DNA from: Streptacidiphilus albus JL83
GTDB lineage: Bacteria > Actinomycetota > Actinomycetes > Streptomycetales > Streptomycetaceae
Length of the DNA: 64,000 nt
Assembly: GCF_000744705.1 (NCBI RefSeq)
Contig: NZ_JQML01000001.1
Location: 8,752,017 to 8,816,016 of the forward strand
Direction: 5' to 3'
A model generated the notes under the pieces. That model was not told the origin of the DNA and made no database searches. It saw nothing but the letters and a program-made list of their open reading frames with translations. Below, piece after piece: positions 37,978 to 46,433 of the stretch. Made by a program: the position numbers and the translations under genes. Positions within the stretch are counted from its first letter, which is position 1; the number at the start of each line of letters is the position of its first letter.

Positions 37978-40737
37978 TCACGCCTGACGGTCGCCGGTGC
38001 CGCCGCCGGTCTGCTGTTGTCGCAGGTCCGAGGCGACGGACTCGATCCTGGCCAGCTGCGCCGCGTACCGGTCGGGGTCCGCGTCCCGCAGGCGCCGCAG
38101 GACGCCGGCGGCTTCGTCCAACAGGGCCAGGGTCGGCGCCTGCTCGGGACGTTGACCGTGCAGGTTCGCGAGATCGACCAGCACTTGGGCCAGGTGGGGG
38201 AGATGGGTGTCCGGGTCCTCGGCGGCCAGCCGCCGTCGCAGGTCCGCGCAACGCGCGAGCGCAGCCACGGCGTCGTCGAACCGCTCCGGCTGCTGACCGT
38301 AGGCCAGCCCGAGGCCGTCGAGCACGTCGGCGAGCTCACTTTCGTACCCGTTCCCTGAGCCCGCCAACGTCTCAACGACCTGCAACGCCTCCTCGTACAC
38401 GGGCACGGACTGCTGCGAGAGCCCCTGAACGTAGAGCAGGACCGCGAGGTGGAGCAGCGCGTCCAGGAGACTGGGCCGGTGTTCCACGGGGTTGGCCAAG
38501 GCCAGCTCCCGGTAGAGGACCACCGCTTCCCGGGTGGCCCGCTCCGCCTCGGCGGCTTCGCCGATCCGGCTGAGCCTGTGGCCCAGATTGGCGAGCGCGC
38601 GTGCGTAGTCCGGGCCGTAGCCCTTCGGCGCCTGCTCGAACTGGGTCTTGCGTATGGCCACCGCCTGCCGGGTGCGCTCGACCGCCTCCTGATGCCGGTC
38701 GTGCCGCGCGAGGGCGCCAGCCAGGTTCTCCAGCGCACCTGCAAGCTCCGCCCACCAGCCGGGGTGATTATTCTCCCACTGCTCGGACACCGCGACGGCT
38801 TCTTCGGCGATGCGGAGCCGCTCGGCGGGTGCGAGACCCCGCCGACCCGCGAGGTTCGCCAGGACCCGGCTCAGCAACCACGGAGGATCACCGGTGGCCC
38901 CGTCCCCGGGCAGGTCGCGCAGGATGTCCGCCGCTTCCTGGGTCGCCGTCAGGGCGACTGCGGGCCGACCCGTGAGCTCCAAGTGGATGCCCAGACTGTC
39001 CAGGGCGTCGGCCAGCCGAATCAGCAGCGCCGTGCGTTCCCCGTCGACCGCTCCGTCCACAAGTCCCCGGTACAGGTCCGCGGCGCGCTGCGCCGCCCGG
39101 ATGCCCTCCTCGTGCAGGGAGGCGTTGAACAGCCTCATGCTGACCTCGCGCTCGATGTCGGCCTGCCTGCGGGCGGTGGCGGCCGAATCCAGCAGCGCCG
39201 GTTCGAGCGCCAGCATCACGGCGGCGATGCCGACGTCGAGTTCGCTGTCACGTGGGGGGAAGCGCGCGGCGATGGTCAGAAGTGACACCAGGTCGATCCC
39301 GGGCAGGGCGGGGAGCGCGGCCAGGACGGCGCCGCCCGCGGCAAGGGCGAGCCAGGGCCGTCTGCGCAGCAGCGGCGAGAGGTGGTCCTGGGCGACGTGC
39401 GGCCAGCGCCGCCCGGTCTCGACGAGCACCGTGCACAGGTGTCGGAGCCAGTCAGGGGCGGTCGCGGTCTCCGCTACGTCCAGCAGCCGGTCGAGCGCAC
39501 CCCGGGTCCAGTGATCCGGCGCCTGGCGTCCGGGGCGCCCGGGCGTGCACAGCGCGAGGAAGTCCTCGCCGAGCCGGTCGGGGTAGAGCGGTTCAAGGAA
39601 GCCGTCCTCGTCGCCGGACGGGTACACCAGGGCGTGCGCCTTGAGCAGCACCCCGGGGGTACGGAGGGTCTCGACCCTGGCCTTGGCCAGGACCGTGCAG
39701 GCCTCGTCGTAGGGCAGCCGGCCGACCAGGGTGGCGACGTACACGACCTGAGCCATCTCGTCGGCGTTGAGGGCCGCGTGCCCTTTGCCACCCGCGTGGG
39801 CCTCCTCCCAGTGGTTCCGCTCCCGGTCGAGCAGGTACGCGGACAGCGCCGAGGGGTCGGTCGGGGGCTGCTCGTTGCGGTCCAGGGCGTGCACCGCGGC
39901 CAGGGCGGCCATGTGGACGGTGAGCATGAGGCCGTAGCGCTCGTCGCCCAGGTCCGTGGGCACCTCGGCAGCCTCGTGGCCCCGGACTCCCAGAGCGTCG
40001 GCGAAGCGCCGGCGCGCAGCCAGGTACGCTGCGTGGCGGTCGTCGGCCGCACCGCCGGCGAGGGGCGACAGCAGCTGTTCGTCGGGGATCAGACCCCTGG
40101 CGCGCAGGCTGTCACGCAGGCTGCTCCACCACCCTGCGTTCGCCCGCGCGACCATCAGCAGGCGCAGCCGCCCCCGGAAGCGGGCGGCGACGTCCTCAAC
40201 GACCGTCTTCATCACGCCGACGGGCCACCGCTCGGTGTAGTCGACAACGACAAGCGCCGGCCGGCCAGGGGCCTCGACACCCGGCGAGGCGAGGCTCGTC
40301 CCGCCGGGCGTCGCTTCCCATCTGGACCAGTCCGAGGGCAGCTCGGCCGCCAGCTCCAGCACCAGTCGCGTCTTGCCCTGGCCCCCGGGGCCGTGCAGCA
40401 GGCGGGCGGCCCGGTCCGGCCCGGCGGGGTCGGTGCACCAGCGCACCAGCTCCGCCACCTCCTGCGCCCGGCCGGTGAACGGCACCTGCCGATTCCTGGC
40501 GAGCAGCAGCCCGCTCGGGCTGCCGGTCCAGCGCCCGCCGGGCGGAGCCGTCCGGCCGTCCGGCAGGGGAGTGATCCGGTACGCGGCGGTGCCTTCGTAG
40601 CGGTTGATGACGTTGGTGGCTCCGTCGCCCGTACTGGCGATGCCGTTGTTCACGTCGGCGAAGATCGAGCCGGTCGCGGCCGGGTCGGGCGGCGCCTCTG
40701 CAGGCGCCGGCCCGGAGCGCTTCCGGTATCTGCTCAT
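37978..40737 (-). CDS. P-loop NTPase (STAND-like) with C-terminal TPR repeats and N-terminal NNGIASTGD tag
   Basis: This is a 919-residue cytoplasmic protein. The N-terminal tag NNGIASTGDGATNV spans about 30-43. An NTPase domain follows with Walker A GPGGQGKT (116-123) and Walker B-like LVVVDY (about 162-167). A winged-helix-like middle and a hydrophobic patch (LALAAGGAVLAALPALPGID) come next. TPR helices then run to the end (YARALANLGHRLSRIGEAAE, VDLANLHGQRPEQAPTLALL). This is the architecture of actinobacterial signalling or conflict ATPases. Its ATG overlaps the partner stop as ATGA, so the two are coupled. The partner carries two copies of the same tag. Confidence 0.85.
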   Translation of the reverse strand: MSRYRKRSGPAPAEAPPDPAATGSIFADVNNGIASTGDGATNVINRYEGTAAYRITPLPDGRTAPPGGRWTGSPSGLLLARNRQVPFTGRAQEVAELVRWCTDPAGPDRAARLLHGPGGQGKTRLVLELAAELPSDWSRWEATPGGTSLASPGVEAPGRPALVVVDYTERWPVGVMKTVVEDVAARFRGRLRLLMVARANAGWWSSLRDSLRARGLIPDEQLLSPLAGGAADDRHAAYLAARRRFADALGVRGHEAAEVPTDLGDERYGLMLTVHMAALAAVHALDRNEQPPTDPSALSAYLLDRERNHWEEAHAGGKGHAALNADEMAQVVYVATLVGRLPYDEACTVLAKARVETLRTPGVLLKAHALVYPSGDEDGFLEPLYPDRLGEDFLALCTPGRPGRQAPDHWTRGALDRLLDVAETATAPDWLRHLCTVLVETGRRWPHVAQDHLSPLLRRRPWLALAAGGAVLAALPALPGIDLVSLLTIAARFPPRDSELDVGIAAVMLALEPALLDSAATARRQADIEREVSMRLFNASLHEEGIRAAQRAADLYRGLVDGAVDGERTALLIRLADALDSLGIHLELTGRPAVALTATQEAADILRDLPGDGATGDPPWLLSRVLANLAGRRGLAPAERLRIAEEAVAVSEQWENNHPGWWAELAGALENLAGALARHDRHQEAVERTRQAVAIRKTQFEQAPKGYGPDYARALANLGHRLSRIGEAAEAERATREAVVLYRELALANPVEHRPSLLDALLHLAVLLYVQGLSQQSVPVYEEALQVVETLAGSGNGYESELADVLDGLGLAYGQQPERFDDAVAALARCADLRRRLAAEDPDTHLPHLAQVLVDLANLHGQRPEQAPTLALLDEAAGVLRRLRDADPDRYAAQLARIESVASDLRQQQTGGGTGDRQA

Positions 40738-41237
40738 CGCGGCTGGTTCTGAATGTTGACCGTGCGGCGGCCGGTGCTGGCGATCCCCGGGTTGTCCTGG
40801 GTGAGGCGGACCGCCCCGGACCCCTGGGGAGTGCCCGCGGCGGTGCTGGACTCGGGGGCGGCCTGGAGCAGGCCCGGTGGCGGCTCACCGGCGCCCTGCC
40901 AGTTGCGGGTGTCATCGCCCGTGCTGACGATACCCTTGTTCGCGCCCTCCACGATCACCTCACCGGTGCTCGGCGACTGCGGCGCACCGGAGTGGGCCTC
41001 GCCCTCGCCGTCCGTCGCGGATCGCTCCCCGGGGGGCGGCGCGGTCGCATACACCTTGGCCCACAGGCCGACGACCCCGCCGGCAACGCTGCCCGCAGTG
41101 ACGCCCCAGAGCGTGCGCCAGTCAGGCGTTTTGACCAGGCGCACCGGAATGCAGCGCGTCACCAGCAAGCCGACGACCAGACAGACCACCACGGCCAGCA
41201 GTAGGCCCACCAGCCAACGCAGAACTTTGCGGCGCAT
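40734..41237 (-). CDS. Two-helix membrane protein with two C-terminal STG(D) tags; partner of the NTPase
   Basis: This 167-residue protein has membrane helices at about 9-28 and 42-62, then a Pro/Gly/Ser-rich cytoplasmic or extracellular tail. The tail has two related tags: ANKGIVSTGDDTRN (99-112) and DNPGIASTGRRTVNIQ (148-163). The downstream NTPase begins with a third copy. A strong AGGAGG precedes ATG at 41237. It probably anchors the NTPase at the membrane through tag-tag contact (inference). No known family was recognised. Confidence 0.8.
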   Translation of the reverse strand: MRRKVLRWLVGLLLAVVVCLVVGLLVTRCIPVRLVKTPDWRTLWGVTAGSVAGGVVGLWAKVYATAPPPGERSATDGEGEAHSGAPQSPSTGEVIVEGANKGIVSTGDDTRNWQGAGEPPPGLLQAAPESSTAAGTPQGSGAVRLTQDNPGIASTGRRTVNIQNQPR

Positions 41238-41603
41238 GCTGCCTCCTTGCCCGCTGCTCGTGCTCAAGGCCCATTGTGACACCCGTTCGGCCCAATGAGG
41301 TGACGGGGGGTCAGAGCGACCGCCGCTACTGGGGCGTGGTCCCGCGTACGGCGTCAGTGCCAGGATGATCGACCACAGCCAGGCGCCGCTGTCCGCCCTG
41401 ATCACCGAAATCTCCGGGCGCCCAGCGACAGCCGCCCCGACCGCGAGGCACACGTCCGCGCCGCACACGAGGGACCATGGCGACGACCACCTGGGACGAG
41501 ATCGCGCGCAGCCGCGCCGCCCAGGGCGGCCGAGGCCCGACAGCTACGACGATCAGGGCCAGGGACCGACGACACCCTGTAGGCGGATCATCCCTCCTCT
41601 GCC
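41238..41603. other. Intergenic stretch with no supported gene
   Basis: Short frames such as one from ATG at 41365 (MIDHSQAPLSALITEISG) start plausibly but become Pro/Arg-rich. No ribosome site, repeat or RNA signature was convincing. The promoters of the divergent operons should lie here. Confidence 0.5.
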
Positions 41604-41795
41604 GTGTTCGGGGCGGCGATGTGCATGCCATCGGCGCCGATCTGGTCGAGCCGGTCCCGGATCCACATCGCCGCAGTACAGTCCAAGACGTACCGGGCGA
41701 TCAATCTCGCGGCGACCGGTCGCTACGTGAAGATCGAGGCGGATGGAAGCACCGCTTGGACCACGACCAATGAAGCCGAGGTGCGTGGACCGTAA
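41604..41795 (+). CDS. Small hypothetical protein coupled to a lipoprotein gene
   Basis: This 63-residue frame ends AINLAATGRYVKIEADGSTA plus about 14 residues. Its TAA stop overlaps the ATG of the next gene (TAATG), which supports real translation. The N-terminal third is less convincing and there is no clear ribosome site. No family is recognised. Confidence 0.35.
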   Translation: MFGAAMCMPSAPIWSSRSRIHIAAVQSKTYRAINLAATGRYVKIEADGSTAWTTTNEAEVRGP

Positions 41796-42184
41796 TGCTT
41801 CCGCAACACACCACCACCGGCGGTCGGGGGCGGACACGGTCGACCGGGGTGGCCCTGGCCGCGTGTGGCCTGGCGGTCCTCGGGCTCACGGCCTGCGAGC
41901 CCAGTTCCCAACTCACCATCCACAACGAACTGAAGGAGCAGGTCCGGATCAGTCACCTTGCTGTCGGAAGGCCCGGAGCAACGGCCGTCAGCGAGAACCC
42001 CGGCGTTGTACTCCCGGGGGCGAGGAACCCGTGGGCGATCAACCTCGGTATTTCCAGTGGATGCCACGATGACATCGAGTACATCGCGACGACGCCGTCC
42101 GGGAAGACCTACACCTACGGTCCGCCGGTGTGCGTGGGCGGGACCTGGACCGTCAAGGACGGCTCGGGTTCGTCCGGAGGGTAG
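41795..42184 (+). CDS. Small lipoprotein of unknown function
   Basis: This is a 129-residue exported protein. The basic N terminus, hydrophobic stretch (GVALAACGLAVLGL) and lipobox LTAC place the lipidated Cys near residue 34. The mature domain is strand-rich (QLTIHNELKEQVRISHLAVG, then DDIEYIATTPSGKTYTYG) with two further Cys residues that could pair. It overlaps the previous small frame by 1 nt. It lies between the two NTPase operons but on the opposite strand. Confidence 0.75.
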   Translation: MLPQHTTTGGRGRTRSTGVALAACGLAVLGLTACEPSSQLTIHNELKEQVRISHLAVGRPGATAVSENPGVVLPGARNPWAINLGISSGCHDDIEYIATTPSGKTYTYGPPVCVGGTWTVKDGSGSSGG

Positions 42185-42582
42185 CTGACCGCTGCTGCGA
42201 CTTCGGCGGAGTCGGTGGCCGGGCCACCGCGACGTGGCTCCCGGCGGTCGAACCGGCATCAATTCGTACTGGAGGCACCGTCCTTGTTGCCGTCGCCCGG
42301 GCCGCCGCGAGCAGTGGCAGGGCTTTCCGGCGCGGGGCGTTGCTGGGCACGACACCGATGTGAGCCACTGACGACCCCGCGGCCCCCGCAGTAGCACCGG
42401 ATGCCCGGCTCAGCGCGAAGCGCCCGCCCCGCAGTTACCCGCGTGAGCTGAAGGTCACCCAGCCCCGGCACGCCAAGCGCGGCTCCGCCTGGGACACCGG
42501 CCATGGTCGAACGGAACGCGGTCGCGACTGCGAAGGCCACGCCGACCTGCACGGACGGAACTCCGGCAGGGGGTCACGGCAG
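42185..42582. other. Intergenic stretch with no supported gene
   Basis: All frames here have unlikely composition. No hairpin, repeat or RNA motif stood out. Confidence 0.55.
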
Positions 42583-43437
42583 TCACGGGCCGGGTTCGGT
42601 GGCTCCTCCACCTTCGTGTTGGGGCCGTGCGACCTGCCCGCTGGTCGATCTCCGGCCATCGGGGTCCTGGCCGACCGAGCGGGGGCCGGGCGTGTGGCTG
42701 GCCCCTTCGCGGGACCCCGGAGGAGTGTCGGCCGCTGCGCCCAGGAGGAGGTACAGGTCGGGTCCGGCGGGCCGTACAGGCAAGCGCGCGCGGCTCTGCA
42801 GGACGACGCCGAGGACACCGGTCGCCACGAACATCACTGCGGCGAGCAGTAGACAGTAGAACCCGAAATCCGAATGGACGGGCATGTCCCTCCGCTCTTC
42901 GGAGAAGGCCCCGACCCTGACGTCGGTCCTGTAGTAGTACGGCTGGAACAGCGCCGCGTTCACCATCAGGAGGACCAGGGCGGCGACGCCGTACCACGCA
43001 GACCAACGGGCGCCTGCCCGCATGGGGTCCTCCATGGCGGAAGCCGGCAGTCGGCGCTCGGGCGATGCCGTGCGCACGGGCACGTACGCGGCGGAGCCGA
43101 AGCTGATCCACCTCGAAGCCCCCCGCCAGTCCCTGCGGGACGGAGGCGCCCACCTCCCGCGCAACGCCCCGAACCACTGCCCACCGGCGACCAGCAAGTA
43201 GAGGGGGCCGATCAGGCCGAACCACGGATCGGTCCACGCACTGTAGGTGAAGCCGCTCCCGTCCAGCGGCGACACTGCCCCCAACCACGGCGTCACCAGG
43301 CTCAGTAACGCCGCCGGCATCGCCGCTACGAACCCCCAGGCCCACCAGGGCGCCCAAGCGAGCCCCTGCTCCGCCGCCGAGCCAGGCCCGGGCTCAGACG
43401 GCCCAGGAGGGGCGGGAGCAACGTGCCCATCAGCCAT
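42583..43437 (-). CDS. Integral membrane protein of unknown function
   Basis: This 284-residue protein has four hydrophobic segments. One pair lies around 30-50 and 70-90 (WWAWGFVAAMPAALLSLVTP, WFGLIGPLYLLVAGGQWFGA). The second pair lies around 150-220 (YGVAALVLLMVNAALFQPYY, FYCLLLAAVMFVATGVLGVV). Both tails are Pro/Gly-rich and disordered. It has no tag of the kind in the flanking NTPase operons. ATG at 43437 is preferred to an upstream frame start. Its position between two NTPase operons on the same strand may be coincidental. Confidence 0.7.
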   Translation of the reverse strand: MADGHVAPAPPGPSEPGPGSAAEQGLAWAPWWAWGFVAAMPAALLSLVTPWLGAVSPLDGSGFTYSAWTDPWFGLIGPLYLLVAGGQWFGALRGRWAPPSRRDWRGASRWISFGSAAYVPVRTASPERRLPASAMEDPMRAGARWSAWYGVAALVLLMVNAALFQPYYYRTDVRVGAFSEERRDMPVHSDFGFYCLLLAAVMFVATGVLGVVLQSRARLPVRPAGPDLYLLLGAAADTPPGSREGASHTPGPRSVGQDPDGRRSTSGQVARPQHEGGGATEPGP

Positions 43438-43703
43438 GGCGCTCTCCAAAGGCTCAACCCGCCGTCACCAGTCAGGTGAGGCAAGCAAATCCATCGGCCG
43501 CCCGGGAGAGCCGCCCCCGATCGACAGCCCCGGCCGCACGCCGGTGATGCTAACGCATCCCAGTCTGCGATGGCTGATCTGCTGATGGTTGGTCATTTCA
43601 GCTGCCACGCTGCCCTGTAGGTGTCATGAACCCCCTTCCAGGCCGGCCCTGGCCGCGGGTTGGCACGCGTGCGGGGTGCCGCGGAGTGCGGGGCGCGGGA
43701 TGG

Positions 43704-43840
43704 CCGATGCTCGTTGCGCGGGGGTGCGGATCGATGCCGGCAGCGGTCAGGATCTCCCGGACCGTGGAGGAGGCGATCGGATGCCCCAGGCGGGCGAGTT
43801 CGCTCTGGATCCGCCGGTGGCCCCACTGGGGGACGGTCAC
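43704..43840 (-). mobile_element. IS3/IS481-like transposase fragment (HTH part only)
   Basis: The minus-strand frame reads [20 protein letters not shown], then [19 protein letters not shown]. This is the typical HTH-21 segment that precedes the DDE integrase core. Both the N-terminal part and the catalytic core are missing, so the element is dead. It overlaps the last codons of the NACHT gene. Confidence 0.7.
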
Positions 43841-46014
43841 GGCATGGGAGTGGGGTCGGCCGGGCGGCGACCGGTATGAGGGCGGCTAAGGTTGTGGCGT
43901 ACCCGGACGCCGTGGACGAGACGGTCCTGGAGCCGGGCGTGGCGGAACTGGTAGACCGCGCCGACCTGGCGCAGGACGCCCCGCTCGTGGGCGTCCTTCA
44001 GGAATGCGGCCGCTGCCCAGGGCAACTGTCCCGTCAGCGGGAGCCAGATGCGACCGAAGACCACCCACTGGCCCCAGCCGGTCAGGGCCAGCGCGCCCCC
44101 GACCGCGATGACGGTGCCGGCCACGATCCCGAATTCAACTCCCTGAGCAGCACCCTGGAGGAGCCCGTTGACGGTCCCCAGCGCGATTCCGCTGACGAGG
44201 CCCGTCACCAGGAACTGGGCCAGGACTGTTGTGCGATTCGCGTTCAGCAGCGCAAGGGGGCCTTCGGCGGCCTCCGTCCTTATCGGAGCTTCCAACCAGG
44301 CGAGCAGGGCCATCGTGAGGCTCAGCAGCAGCACGCACGCGAGCGTGCCGACCAGTCCGGCTACGAACCCTGCCAGCAGCGCGTTCACCAGTCCGCCGGG
44401 GAGCCTGTCCCAGAGGTCGAAGATGATCCCGTCCGAGGCCACGAGTCCGCCCAGGCCCACGAATCCGCCCGCCGCTCCGAGGACCAGCCCGTCCCTGAAC
44501 CTGAGGGCGAAGGCCTTCCGTACCTGCTGCGGTTTGTGCCAGGAGGCTCCCCTGATCCGCAGCCGTACCCGTGACGGCTCGACCGCTCCGAGCCTGAGCC
44601 GCAGTGTGTGGATGAGCGCGAACGCCGCCCCCACCACTGTCGCGCGGGCGCCGATGAGCTCCAGGGCGAACGGGAACGGGACCCCCATGCCGGTCCACAG
44701 GAGCACCGTGGCCGCCATGAGACTGTCTGTCACTGCGAAGGTCAGCCCGACCACGAGCCCGACTACGAGAACGCGCTGGATTCGGCCCAGGGCGGCGCCG
44801 ATCTCCCACCAGGCGAGCTCGCGGCTGTTGCCTCTCCGCCTCAGATGGTCCGCCAGGTAGCCGAGCACGTGTTGGGCGCGTTCCGGGTCCCAGCGGGACG
44901 GGTCATCGGGCCTGGCGTACACGGTCGGGACGAAGCGGTCGAGGAGGTGGTTCTCCAGGGCTCCGGCGCTGAGGAGCGGTTCCTTGAGCAGCTCCGAGGA
45001 GCGGCGGCCGGAGCCGCCGCTGTACACGGTCCGGGCGATGCCGACCATCAGCGGGGTGCTGAGTACTTCGGTGAGGCTGGTGCTCGCAGGGCTTCCGGGG
45101 CGCTGGCGCAGTTCGTCCAGGACGGGATCCCACGCGCGCTCGTTGGCGCGGGAGAGGTAGGCGGTCGCCTTGTCCAGGGGGAGGCCGAGCAGTTCGACGG
45201 CTGCTGCGCAGGACAGCGGACCCGTGCGTGCTACGGCGTCCTCATACTCTTTGCGGCGGCTGGTCAGCAGCAGGGGCAGGTCGGATGTCCTGCTGAGTTC
45301 TGCCAGTGCCTTCAGACGCAGTTCTCCAGCGATCTCGTCGAACCCATCCAGGATGGGCAGGATGCGGCGGTCCTCGACCAGCTCGGCTGCCATCGGCGCC
45401 GCCAGACCCGCGTGGTCGCGCAGCAACTGGCGGGTCATCCACTTCTTCAGCGGGACGGTCGGGTTCCAGGACCCGATACTGAAGACGACCGGGACGGCCC
45501 GGGTGTGTTCGCGAGTCCCGTCCTCCTTCTGTTTCGCCAGCAGATCCAGGGCGAACCGCTGCGTCAGCACGCTCTTGCCAGAGCCTCCGGGGCCCAGCAG
45601 CACCAGGCGGTGAGACGGGATCCTCTCGTACACCGCGCAGAGGTCCCCGCGCCCGTTGGTCAGATCGAGAGGTTCAGCTGGGTCCGTGAGCGGGACCTTG
45701 CGGATGGCTGCCCACTGGGCGGTCAGCTCCAGCGGTGCTGCCTGCCACAGCACGGGCAATCGGACAGGTGCGCTCATCTGCAGCTTGTCCTCCTCCGCTG
45801 CGAGGCGCCGACGGACCAGCTTCGCCAGTTCAGCTGCTGCCGCGTCCTGCTCGTCCGTCTGCAGTTGCGGAAGCACCGTGACGTTCACGATGTCCCCGGT
45901 GTGGACCACGCTGTTGGTGATCTCCATTGCGCTGACCGCTCGATCGCCCGAGGCCGTGACGGCGGTGTGGGCCGGCCCGTGTCCCTCGGGTTCGGGTGGG
46001 GTGGGCACGGTCAC
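43837..46014 (-). CDS. Membrane NACHT-domain NTPase with N-terminal VVHTGD tag
   Basis: This is a 725-residue protein. The N-terminal tag [15 protein letters not shown] lies at about 33-47. The NACHT ATPase has Walker A GPGGSGKS (141-148), Walker B ILDGFDEI (221-228), and [13 protein letters not shown] as sensor region. The C-terminal 350 residues hold about seven membrane helices (for example [20 protein letters not shown]). They end in [12 protein letters not shown], the usual end of this family. The last 25 residues or so run into IS-derived sequence. The GTG start overlaps the partner stop as GTGA. NACHT proteins of this type are signalling or defence ATPases; the trigger is unknown. Confidence 0.85.
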
Positions 46015-46433
46015 GTGCCAGCAGGGCGGGAGTCACCGGTGGTGATCGATCCGTTGGCCGTCTGGACCGCCACCGAGCGGGAGCCGGAGGCGGTGATGGT
46101 CACCGTGGCCTGCGCAGCGGCCGGGCGGGGCCAGGCCGCGATCTCGGCGGCGAGGTCCGGATCGCCCCGCAGGGCGTCGCCGACCGCGACGCGCAGCAGC
46201 GCCTGCAGATCGTCATCGGCCAGGCACCCGGCAAGCCTGTCGACGGCGCCAGCCACGGTACCGGGGCCGCTGTCGGTGCCGCGGGTCAGGCGGCGGATCA
46301 GGCGCTGGCCCAGGGAGACCGTGGCATCGGCGGCCTGCTCCTCAGCGCGGGTCAGCACGGCGGCACCGTAGGCGCCCACGGCTGCTGCCATGTACGGCGT
46401 GATCTCCTGCGCAAGCGTGACGGCATCGACCAC
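46011..46433 (-). CDS. Small helical partner of the NACHT protein, with C-terminal SITTGD tag
   Basis: This 140-residue protein is mostly helical (EITPYMAAAVGAYGAAVLTRA, then LADDDLQALLRVAVGDALRG). A short strand region at 107-135 contains ASGSRSVAVQTANGSITTGD. The tag matches the one at the N terminus of the NACHT protein encoded next, with 4-nt overlap. The start is GTG at 46433 after GGGGGGAG. Similar small proteins precede NTPase genes in other actinomycetes, probably as adaptors (family memory, not searched). Confidence 0.8.
   Translation of the reverse strand: MVDAVTLAQEITPYMAAAVGAYGAAVLTRAEEQAADATVSLGQRLIRRLTRGTDSGPGTVAGAVDRLAGCLADDDLQALLRVAVGDALRGDPDLAAEIAAWPRPAAAQATVTITASGSRSVAVQTANGSITTGDSRPAGT

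Follow-up and report, generated by a model that had tools for sequence, protein, structure and literature searches.

Introduction

Passages of the published accounts describe bacterial amyloid signalling sequences (BASS) as motifs encoded by adjoining genes, in which an effector carries the motif at its C-terminus and an NLR carries it at its N-terminus (PMC7889193, PMC8086366), and place them mainly in filamentous actinobacteria and cyanobacteria (PMC7889193, PMC9815663). According to these passages, BASS motifs and the HET-S/NWD2 motifs pass an amyloid fold from the activated NLR to the effector, twofold or threefold repeats of a BASS motif are known, and the outcome in HET-S is a pore-forming toxin while the bacterial outcome is still open (PMC7889193, PMC9815663). 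Effectors other than Bell, namely CHAT and TIR, are also known with BASS motifs, and the same review calls the biological role of NLR amyloid signalling in microbes a major blind spot (PMC7889193). Here we report on two gene pairs in a 64,000-nucleotide stretch of DNA from Streptacidiphilus albus JL83 (contig NZ_JQML01000001.1, positions 8,752,017 to 8,816,016 of the forward strand), referred to as a whole as the window. Each pair joins a small partner gene to a gene for a nucleoside triphosphatase (NTPase), and all four proteins carry a related sequence tag of ~20-30 residues.

We propose, with good confidence, that both operons are BASS-type alarms made up of two genes. Since the kind is already published and the variant was not found in the literature searched, operon 2, which encodes a Bell-like partner and a NACHT protein, is likely a standard-looking member, and operon 1 is a variant that combines a small membrane effector bearing a doubled tag with a sensor of the STAND (signal transduction ATPases with numerous domains) type carrying tetratricopeptide repeats (TPRs). 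An earlier note, made on this DNA from its sequence, had considered, as far as it could tell, that the shared tag was outside standard annotation; passages on BASS motifs already describe the arrangement (PMC7889193, PMC8086366).

Results

Two operons with cognate tags

Both gene pairs lie on the - strand, ~5 kb apart, with the small partner upstream and the NTPase second. The junction is an ATGA overlap in operon 1 and a GTGA overlap in operon 2, in agreement with the gene order and 4-nt overlaps given in the earlier note. Operon 1 encodes partner 1, the membrane effector candidate (40734..41237, - strand; 167 aa, with AAGGAGG preceding its ATG start), and a STAND-type NTPase with C-terminal TPRs (37978..40737, - strand; 919 aa). 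Operon 2 encodes the Bell-like partner (46011..46433, - strand; 140 aa, GTG start), which has a putative helical body and a C-terminal tag, and the NACHT protein (43837..46014, - strand; 725 aa), whose Pfam NACHT match is above the cut-off (E 1.8e-8).

Five tag copies are spread over these four genes. Two are in partner 1: copy 1 (EVIVEGANKGIVSTGDDTRN; 40893..40970, - strand) has the core GIVSTGD at residue 102 of 167, and copy 2 (QDNPGIASTGRRTVNIQNQPR; 40743..40829, - strand), at the C-terminus, has the core GIASTGR at residue 151. The N-terminal tag of the NTPase (FADVNNGIASTGDGATNVIN; 40600..40683, - strand) has the core GIASTGD at residue 32. In operon 2 the C-terminal tag of the Bell-like partner (TASGSRSVAVQTANGSITTGDSR; 46020..46091, - strand) has the core GSITTGD at residue 128 of 140, and the N-terminal tag of the NACHT protein (45871..45954, - strand) has the core SVVHTGD at residue 35. 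The tags may resemble BASS1. The description of partner tags as C-terminal and NTPase tags as N-terminal needs one amendment, in that copy 1 of partner 1 lies ~60 residues before the C-terminus.

The 9.9 Mb genome was searched for tags with two profiles; 150 of 182 first-look candidates were scored with the first (A2) and 150 of 244 with the second (A3), so that a tag elsewhere could be passed over. A2, whose rows include all five window tags, gave five matches at E 7e-10 to 1e-6, all in these operons (partner 1 copy 1, 7.3e-10; copy 2, 1.5e-8; NTPase, 1.3e-7; NACHT protein, 1.8e-7; Bell-like partner, 9.5e-7), and the next match stood at E 4.45; the claim that four proteins in two operons carry related tags is thus borne out, these being the only matches at E < 1. 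Because all five window tags are rows of A2, profile A3 is the fairer test: it was built from 13 foreign tags without window sequences, three of them from the locus of a 51% orthologue in Streptacidiphilus anmyonensis. With A3, four window tags ranked first among six matches (partner 1 copy 1, E 2.5e-4; Bell-like partner, 6.1e-4; partner 1 copy 2, 0.21; NTPase, 0.23), followed by one at E 2.66. A third profile, made of tags from Bell-type operons of other genomes and run on the 739 open frames of the window, placed the Bell-like partner (E 1.3e-6), partner 1 copy 1 (E 7.9e-6) and, weakly, the NTPase (E 0.048) at the top.

Pairwise scores distinguish the two operons. Inside each operon they range from 39 to 49, a level equalled by 0 to 2 of 2000 shuffles; within partner 1 the two copies score 39 against each other, copy 2 scores 42 against the NTPase tag, and the NACHT tag scores 49 against that of the Bell-like partner (0/2000). 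Across the operons the scores fall to 20-31, and 37 to 546 of 2000 shuffles are as good. To judge by these alignments, the operons bear two cognate tags of one loose family rather than one common tag. The single tag that the earlier note saw in both operons was accordingly given up as a pairwise claim and kept at the level of the loose family. The same numbers bear on possible cross-talk, with the two operons acting as a single network and each sensor able to fire either effector. Such cross-talk would be in keeping with the loose family likeness and with the position of both sets, ~5 kb apart, as the sole tags at E < 1 in the genome, but the low cross-operon scores suggest insulation, and we consider a common network improbable.

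Tags match within gene pairs of relatives

Matches to the operon 1 NTPase at E <= 1e-20 were found in 44 of 150 genomes of its family, the window's own included, and in a larger collection the 417 pattern matches included 327 that encode a relative of this NTPase; the top 80 of these were retained. From 111 NTPase loci, 88 pairs could be defined (23 had no partner under the rule used), and 62 remained after a cut on NTPase identity, again with the window included; a few of the partners kept (L025, L116, L135) seem mis-called and count against the result. Among these 62 NTPase-TPR pairs the tags differ between loci and yet agree within pairs, with a mean cognate score of 53.4 against 28.5 for permuted pairs (sd 1.25) and none of 10,000 permutations as high. 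The cognate score exceeds the 99th percentile of residue shuffles in 38 of the 62, and in those 38 the match begins a median of 7.5 residues from the NTPase start and ends a median of 5 residues from the partner C-terminus. The matching persists in 24 membrane-type pairs and in the remaining 38 taken separately (0/10,000 each), the former having been listed by hand, with L015, L011 and the window added on inspection and L135 excluded as mis-called.

Operon 2 has its own relatives. Matches to the Bell-like partner occur in 32 of 149 other genomes, and 30 Bell-type loci, the window included, gave 27 matched at E <= 1e-8 and finally 19 pairs, eight loci having been excluded (one fused, one without a stop and six without a downstream frame by the rule used). 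In these 19 pairs, which include the window, the mean cognate score is 59.3 against 41.7 permuted (0/10,000). The exact 4-nt gene overlap recurs in 46 of the 62 NTPase-TPR pairs and in 14 of the 19 Bell-type pairs.

These comparisons also address another idea, in which the tags serve as a conserved linker or a signal for localisation and resemble each other within pairs through co-inheritance, with no contact between them. Overlapping genes are indeed inherited jointly. Against this, an inner stretch of the partner (-165 to -90), used as a control, is unlike the NTPase N-terminus and exceeded the shuffle cut-off in 0 of 62 pairs. At the cut used, clustering of the NTPase N-termini (48 residues, tag and linker) gives 16 clusters, of which six have at least two members; a mis-called start or partner may account for some of the singletons. 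Because the partner match persists in the permutation test across these clusters, the tags change in step. One tag family is, moreover, found on differing gene types. Taken with these results, a linker or localisation signal appears very improbable.

A tag search in 101 genomes gave 28 matches at E <= 0.05 outside the window's genome. The 23 at E <= 0.0053, five weaker ones (E 0.015-0.043) being left out of the count, comprise 17 with a second tag on the same strand within ~400 nt and six inside Bell genes; ten come from five genomes that had supplied profile rows, and the remaining 13 divide into eight paired matches and five in Bell genes. The expectation that tag hits would fall in gene pairs and not be scattered is upheld by this count.

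The operon 1 NTPase resembles a STAND sensor

The operon 1 NTPase has a Walker A motif, GPGGQGKTR, at residue 116 and a Walker B motif, LVVVDY, at residue 162. Pfam identifies TPRs and, under the cut-off, AAA_16, with no NACHT match; an nSTAND_NTPase5 match at E <= 0.01 is present in 28 of 39 aligned members of the family, the window protein giving AAA_16 only. When solved structures were searched with the NTPase profile, the 60 matches listed of 65 carried the names of TPR or other helical-repeat proteins, most of them covering the TPR part only. A model of the NTPase core (pLDDT 88.6) matches the folds of ORC/Cdc6 (Z 13-14; 7jgr, Z 13.8), NRC2 (Z 13.1, rmsd 5.3 over 270) and NLRC4 (Z 12.1, rmsd 4.9 over 319). 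The ORC/Cdc6, RFC and NLR rows differ by no more than ~2 Z, so that STAND membership rests on all rows together with the nSTAND_NTPase5 matches and not on any one row. On these profile matches and the modelled core, a STAND NTPase is the natural reading of this protein. In wider searches, PADLOC defence-system models gave weak matches only, the best being Cas2-type models on the operon 1 NTPase (E 0.018), and the NCBIfam search returned nothing credible (best E 0.043).

The partners include membrane proteins with doubled tags

Partner 1 has a strong N-terminal transmembrane (TM) helix (residues 9-27), a weaker hydrophobic stretch at ~44-62 that was judged by eye and lies below the hydropathy cut, and a tail rich in Pro, Ser and Gly that bears the two tags. 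This architecture recurs at the 51% orthologue locus, where the partner is of the same kind and has two tags, and in L183 and L184. A sequence search with partner 1 in 394 genomes found the orthologue at E 7e-10, the next match at 3.6e-5 and most at ~1e-3, several with stops; since these matches are weak, the family was traced through the NTPase instead. Two sorts of partner occur in the NTPase-TPR family: small membrane proteins, and helical proteins of which some weakly resemble the Bell profile (best E 4.4e-6). A second tag copy is present in 13 of the 21 partners with at least two TM windows and in 4 of the 41 others, and two of those four (the window and L015) resemble membrane proteins missed by the hydropathy cut.

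For partner 1, Pfam offers three matches to domains of unknown function, at E 0.06 or worse, and for the Bell-like protein none; neither has a HeLo match at E <= 1, although a remote fold can escape a sequence profile. A Bell domain is a compact bundle of helices, one of them hydrophobic. The Bell-like protein, modelled without an alignment and with low confidence (pLDDT 49), shows five helices followed by three strands, and a sequence search of solved structures found no relative of it (best E 0.47). Seven hydrophobic windows lie at residues 414-644 of the NACHT protein, C-terminal of its NACHT domain.

Double-tag membrane effectors occur beside differing genes: the one in L184 adjoins an NB-ARC-like gene, named by eye, and the one in L183 adjoins a membrane protein with an N-terminal tag. 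Because of this, tag, effector and sensor look like exchangeable modules.

Some further loci are recorded here as side observations. The L183 frames span ~216-1743 and ~1079-2483, and the second protein, which has the N-terminal tag and a TM helix, contains no NTPase obvious by eye. In L201, on the reverse strand, neither member of the pair is a recognised NTPase: the first, a long protein, has VYLGGSNRGVISTGG as its C-terminal tag, and the 169-aa frame after it has IHIGGDNSGIVSTGS as its N-terminal one. This pair is relevant to whether the tags function outside NLR pathways. In L109 the partner upstream of the NTPase has two tag types in tandem, NSATVSTGD and GRVYQAGQD, the second being the type of the cognate NTPase, and possibly forms a bridge between two pairs.

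Two frames were examined in the interval between the operons, and neither has an accepted Pfam match. One, a membrane-protein frame of 288 aa (42583-43449, - strand), contains four hydrophobic windows, and Pfam gave nothing for it at E <= 0.01. Directly downstream of the NACHT gene, and overlapping it by 4 nt, lies an 80-aa frame (43601-43840, - strand) with a weak match, under the cut-off, to the transposase-type helix-turn-helix HTH_21 (E 0.0029), which makes it a possible remnant of a mobile element.

Discussion

A proposed model of amyloid-type signalling

Gene order, tag positions, pair-specific matching, a STAND-like modelled core, a TM segment and tag doubling are the observations from which we suggest a model for both operons. 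The second gene would encode a STAND NTPase sensor, of the TPR type in operon 1 and the NACHT type in operon 2, and the first gene its effector. On meeting its trigger the sensor would oligomerise and bring its N-terminal tags together, and the clustered tags might then adopt a small cross-beta stack, on which the similar tags of the effector tail would be templated, so that the effector clusters and switches on. Effector action would probably take place at the membrane, with cell death or growth arrest as the outcome. The amyloid fold, the templating, the cell death and the nature of the trigger, whether phage or other, are carried over to this locus by analogy with the described systems. A doubled effector tag may ease nucleation, which is a guess on our part.

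The earlier note had suggested that the tags dock the NTPase onto its partner. In one respect the data agree with it, since every partner is connected by its tag to the NTPase of its own operon, in an arrangement that recurs in tens of loci. Ordinary docking strands, in which a beta-strand of the NTPase would pair with a beta-strand of the partner and form a stable, stoichiometric and non-polymerising complex, would suit the position and geometry of tags near free ends, and pair-specific matching would be expected of them too. The tags of a pair, however, are alike and not complementary, and for this reason their sequences would seem better suited to homotypic stacking than to one-to-one docking of strands. 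Two copies are also frequent on membrane-type partners, and passages on published BASS and fungal motifs of the same arrangement describe them as convertible to prions (PMC7889193). Docking strands are therefore an unlikely explanation, if the least unlikely of the alternatives that we have weighed.

Several results speak against amyloid-type signalling or blunt the case for it. The cognate score falls short of the 99th percentile of residue shuffles in 24 of the 62 NTPase-TPR pairs. The cognate partner is the top-scoring one in only 16 of these 62 (it is in the top five in 42, and many loci have a common tag type) and in 5 of the 19 Bell-type pairs, and co-inheritance of adjoining genes could be behind part of the matching. 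Neither the A3 genome search nor the window search with the Bell-only profile recovered the NACHT tag. The 25 matches listed (E up to 0.31) for a home-made profile of 26 Bell-like proteins do not include partner 1, and the hydropathy plot of the Bell-like protein has no TM window and none over 1.3.

More tentatively, operon 1 may belong to a large undescribed actinobacterial branch, in which the effectors of STAND-TPR sensors are membrane or helical proteins, mutually matched tags of many types extend beyond the ten described families and membrane effectors carry doubled tags. The same tag logic in pairs without a recognised NTPase (L183, L201) would then make the tags a general wiring code and not a speciality of NLRs; we regard this broader proposal as possible, and distinctly less secure than the assignment of the two operons to the BASS kind.

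The locus offers some practical openings. One genome with just two pairs by tag profile, bearing related but distinct tags, would allow specificity and cross-talk to be tested in one strain, and the presence in that strain of both a Bell-type effector and a double-tag membrane effector would permit the use of the second tag copy to be probed. Tag pairs that change in step also lend themselves naturally as candidates for orthogonal pairing tags.

Comparison with known systems

Our literature search, which covered titles, abstract openings and passages, found neither STAND-TPR NTPases accompanied by a double-tag membrane effector nor such breadth of tag types; the variant may already stand in the tables of Dyrka et al. 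2020. Characterised antiviral STANDs (Avs) have fused N-terminal effector domains, according to the passage available (PMC10907252), whereas here the effector is a separate gene with a tag. A STAND NTPase core is common to operon 1 and the Avs/bNACHT proteins, and Foldseek lists Avs3 and Avs4 among the matches to the modelled core, with low TM-scores. Effector-associated and bacterial Death-like domains are folded domains, unlike the short tags described here. As in our operons, passages describe them as homotypic modules on a sensor and on a separately encoded effector (PMC8195603).

In HET-S/NWD2 of Podospora anserina, the passage available describes two effector motifs (r1, r2) and one N-terminal motif on the adjoining NLR (r0), and membrane action is known (PMC9815663). 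Operon 1 has the same 2:1 motif count, which recurs in its relatives through the doubled tag of 13 of the 21 membrane-type partners, and a membrane action is proposed for it. Sequence, domains and kingdom differ, and Pfam lists no HeLo match for operon 1.

The closest likeness is to the BASS/Bell-NLR pairs (Dyrka et al. 2020, J Mol Biol, as presented in passages of PMC7889193, PMC8086366, PMC12261475 and PMC9815663), in which the genes adjoin or overlap and a small effector carries a C-terminal motif, at times repeated, that is like the N-terminal motif of the NLR. Operon 1 departs from these in its membrane effector, which is absent from the matches listed for the home-made Bell profile, and in its STAND-TPR NTPase, which has no Pfam NACHT match and has AAA_16 under the cut-off. 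In both of our operons, a like motif nevertheless joins the effector C-terminus to the N-terminus of the adjoining NTPase, and the sensor is of NLR type, as indicated by the Pfam NACHT match in operon 2 and, in operon 1, by the nSTAND_NTPase5 matches of relatives, the core model and the TPRs.

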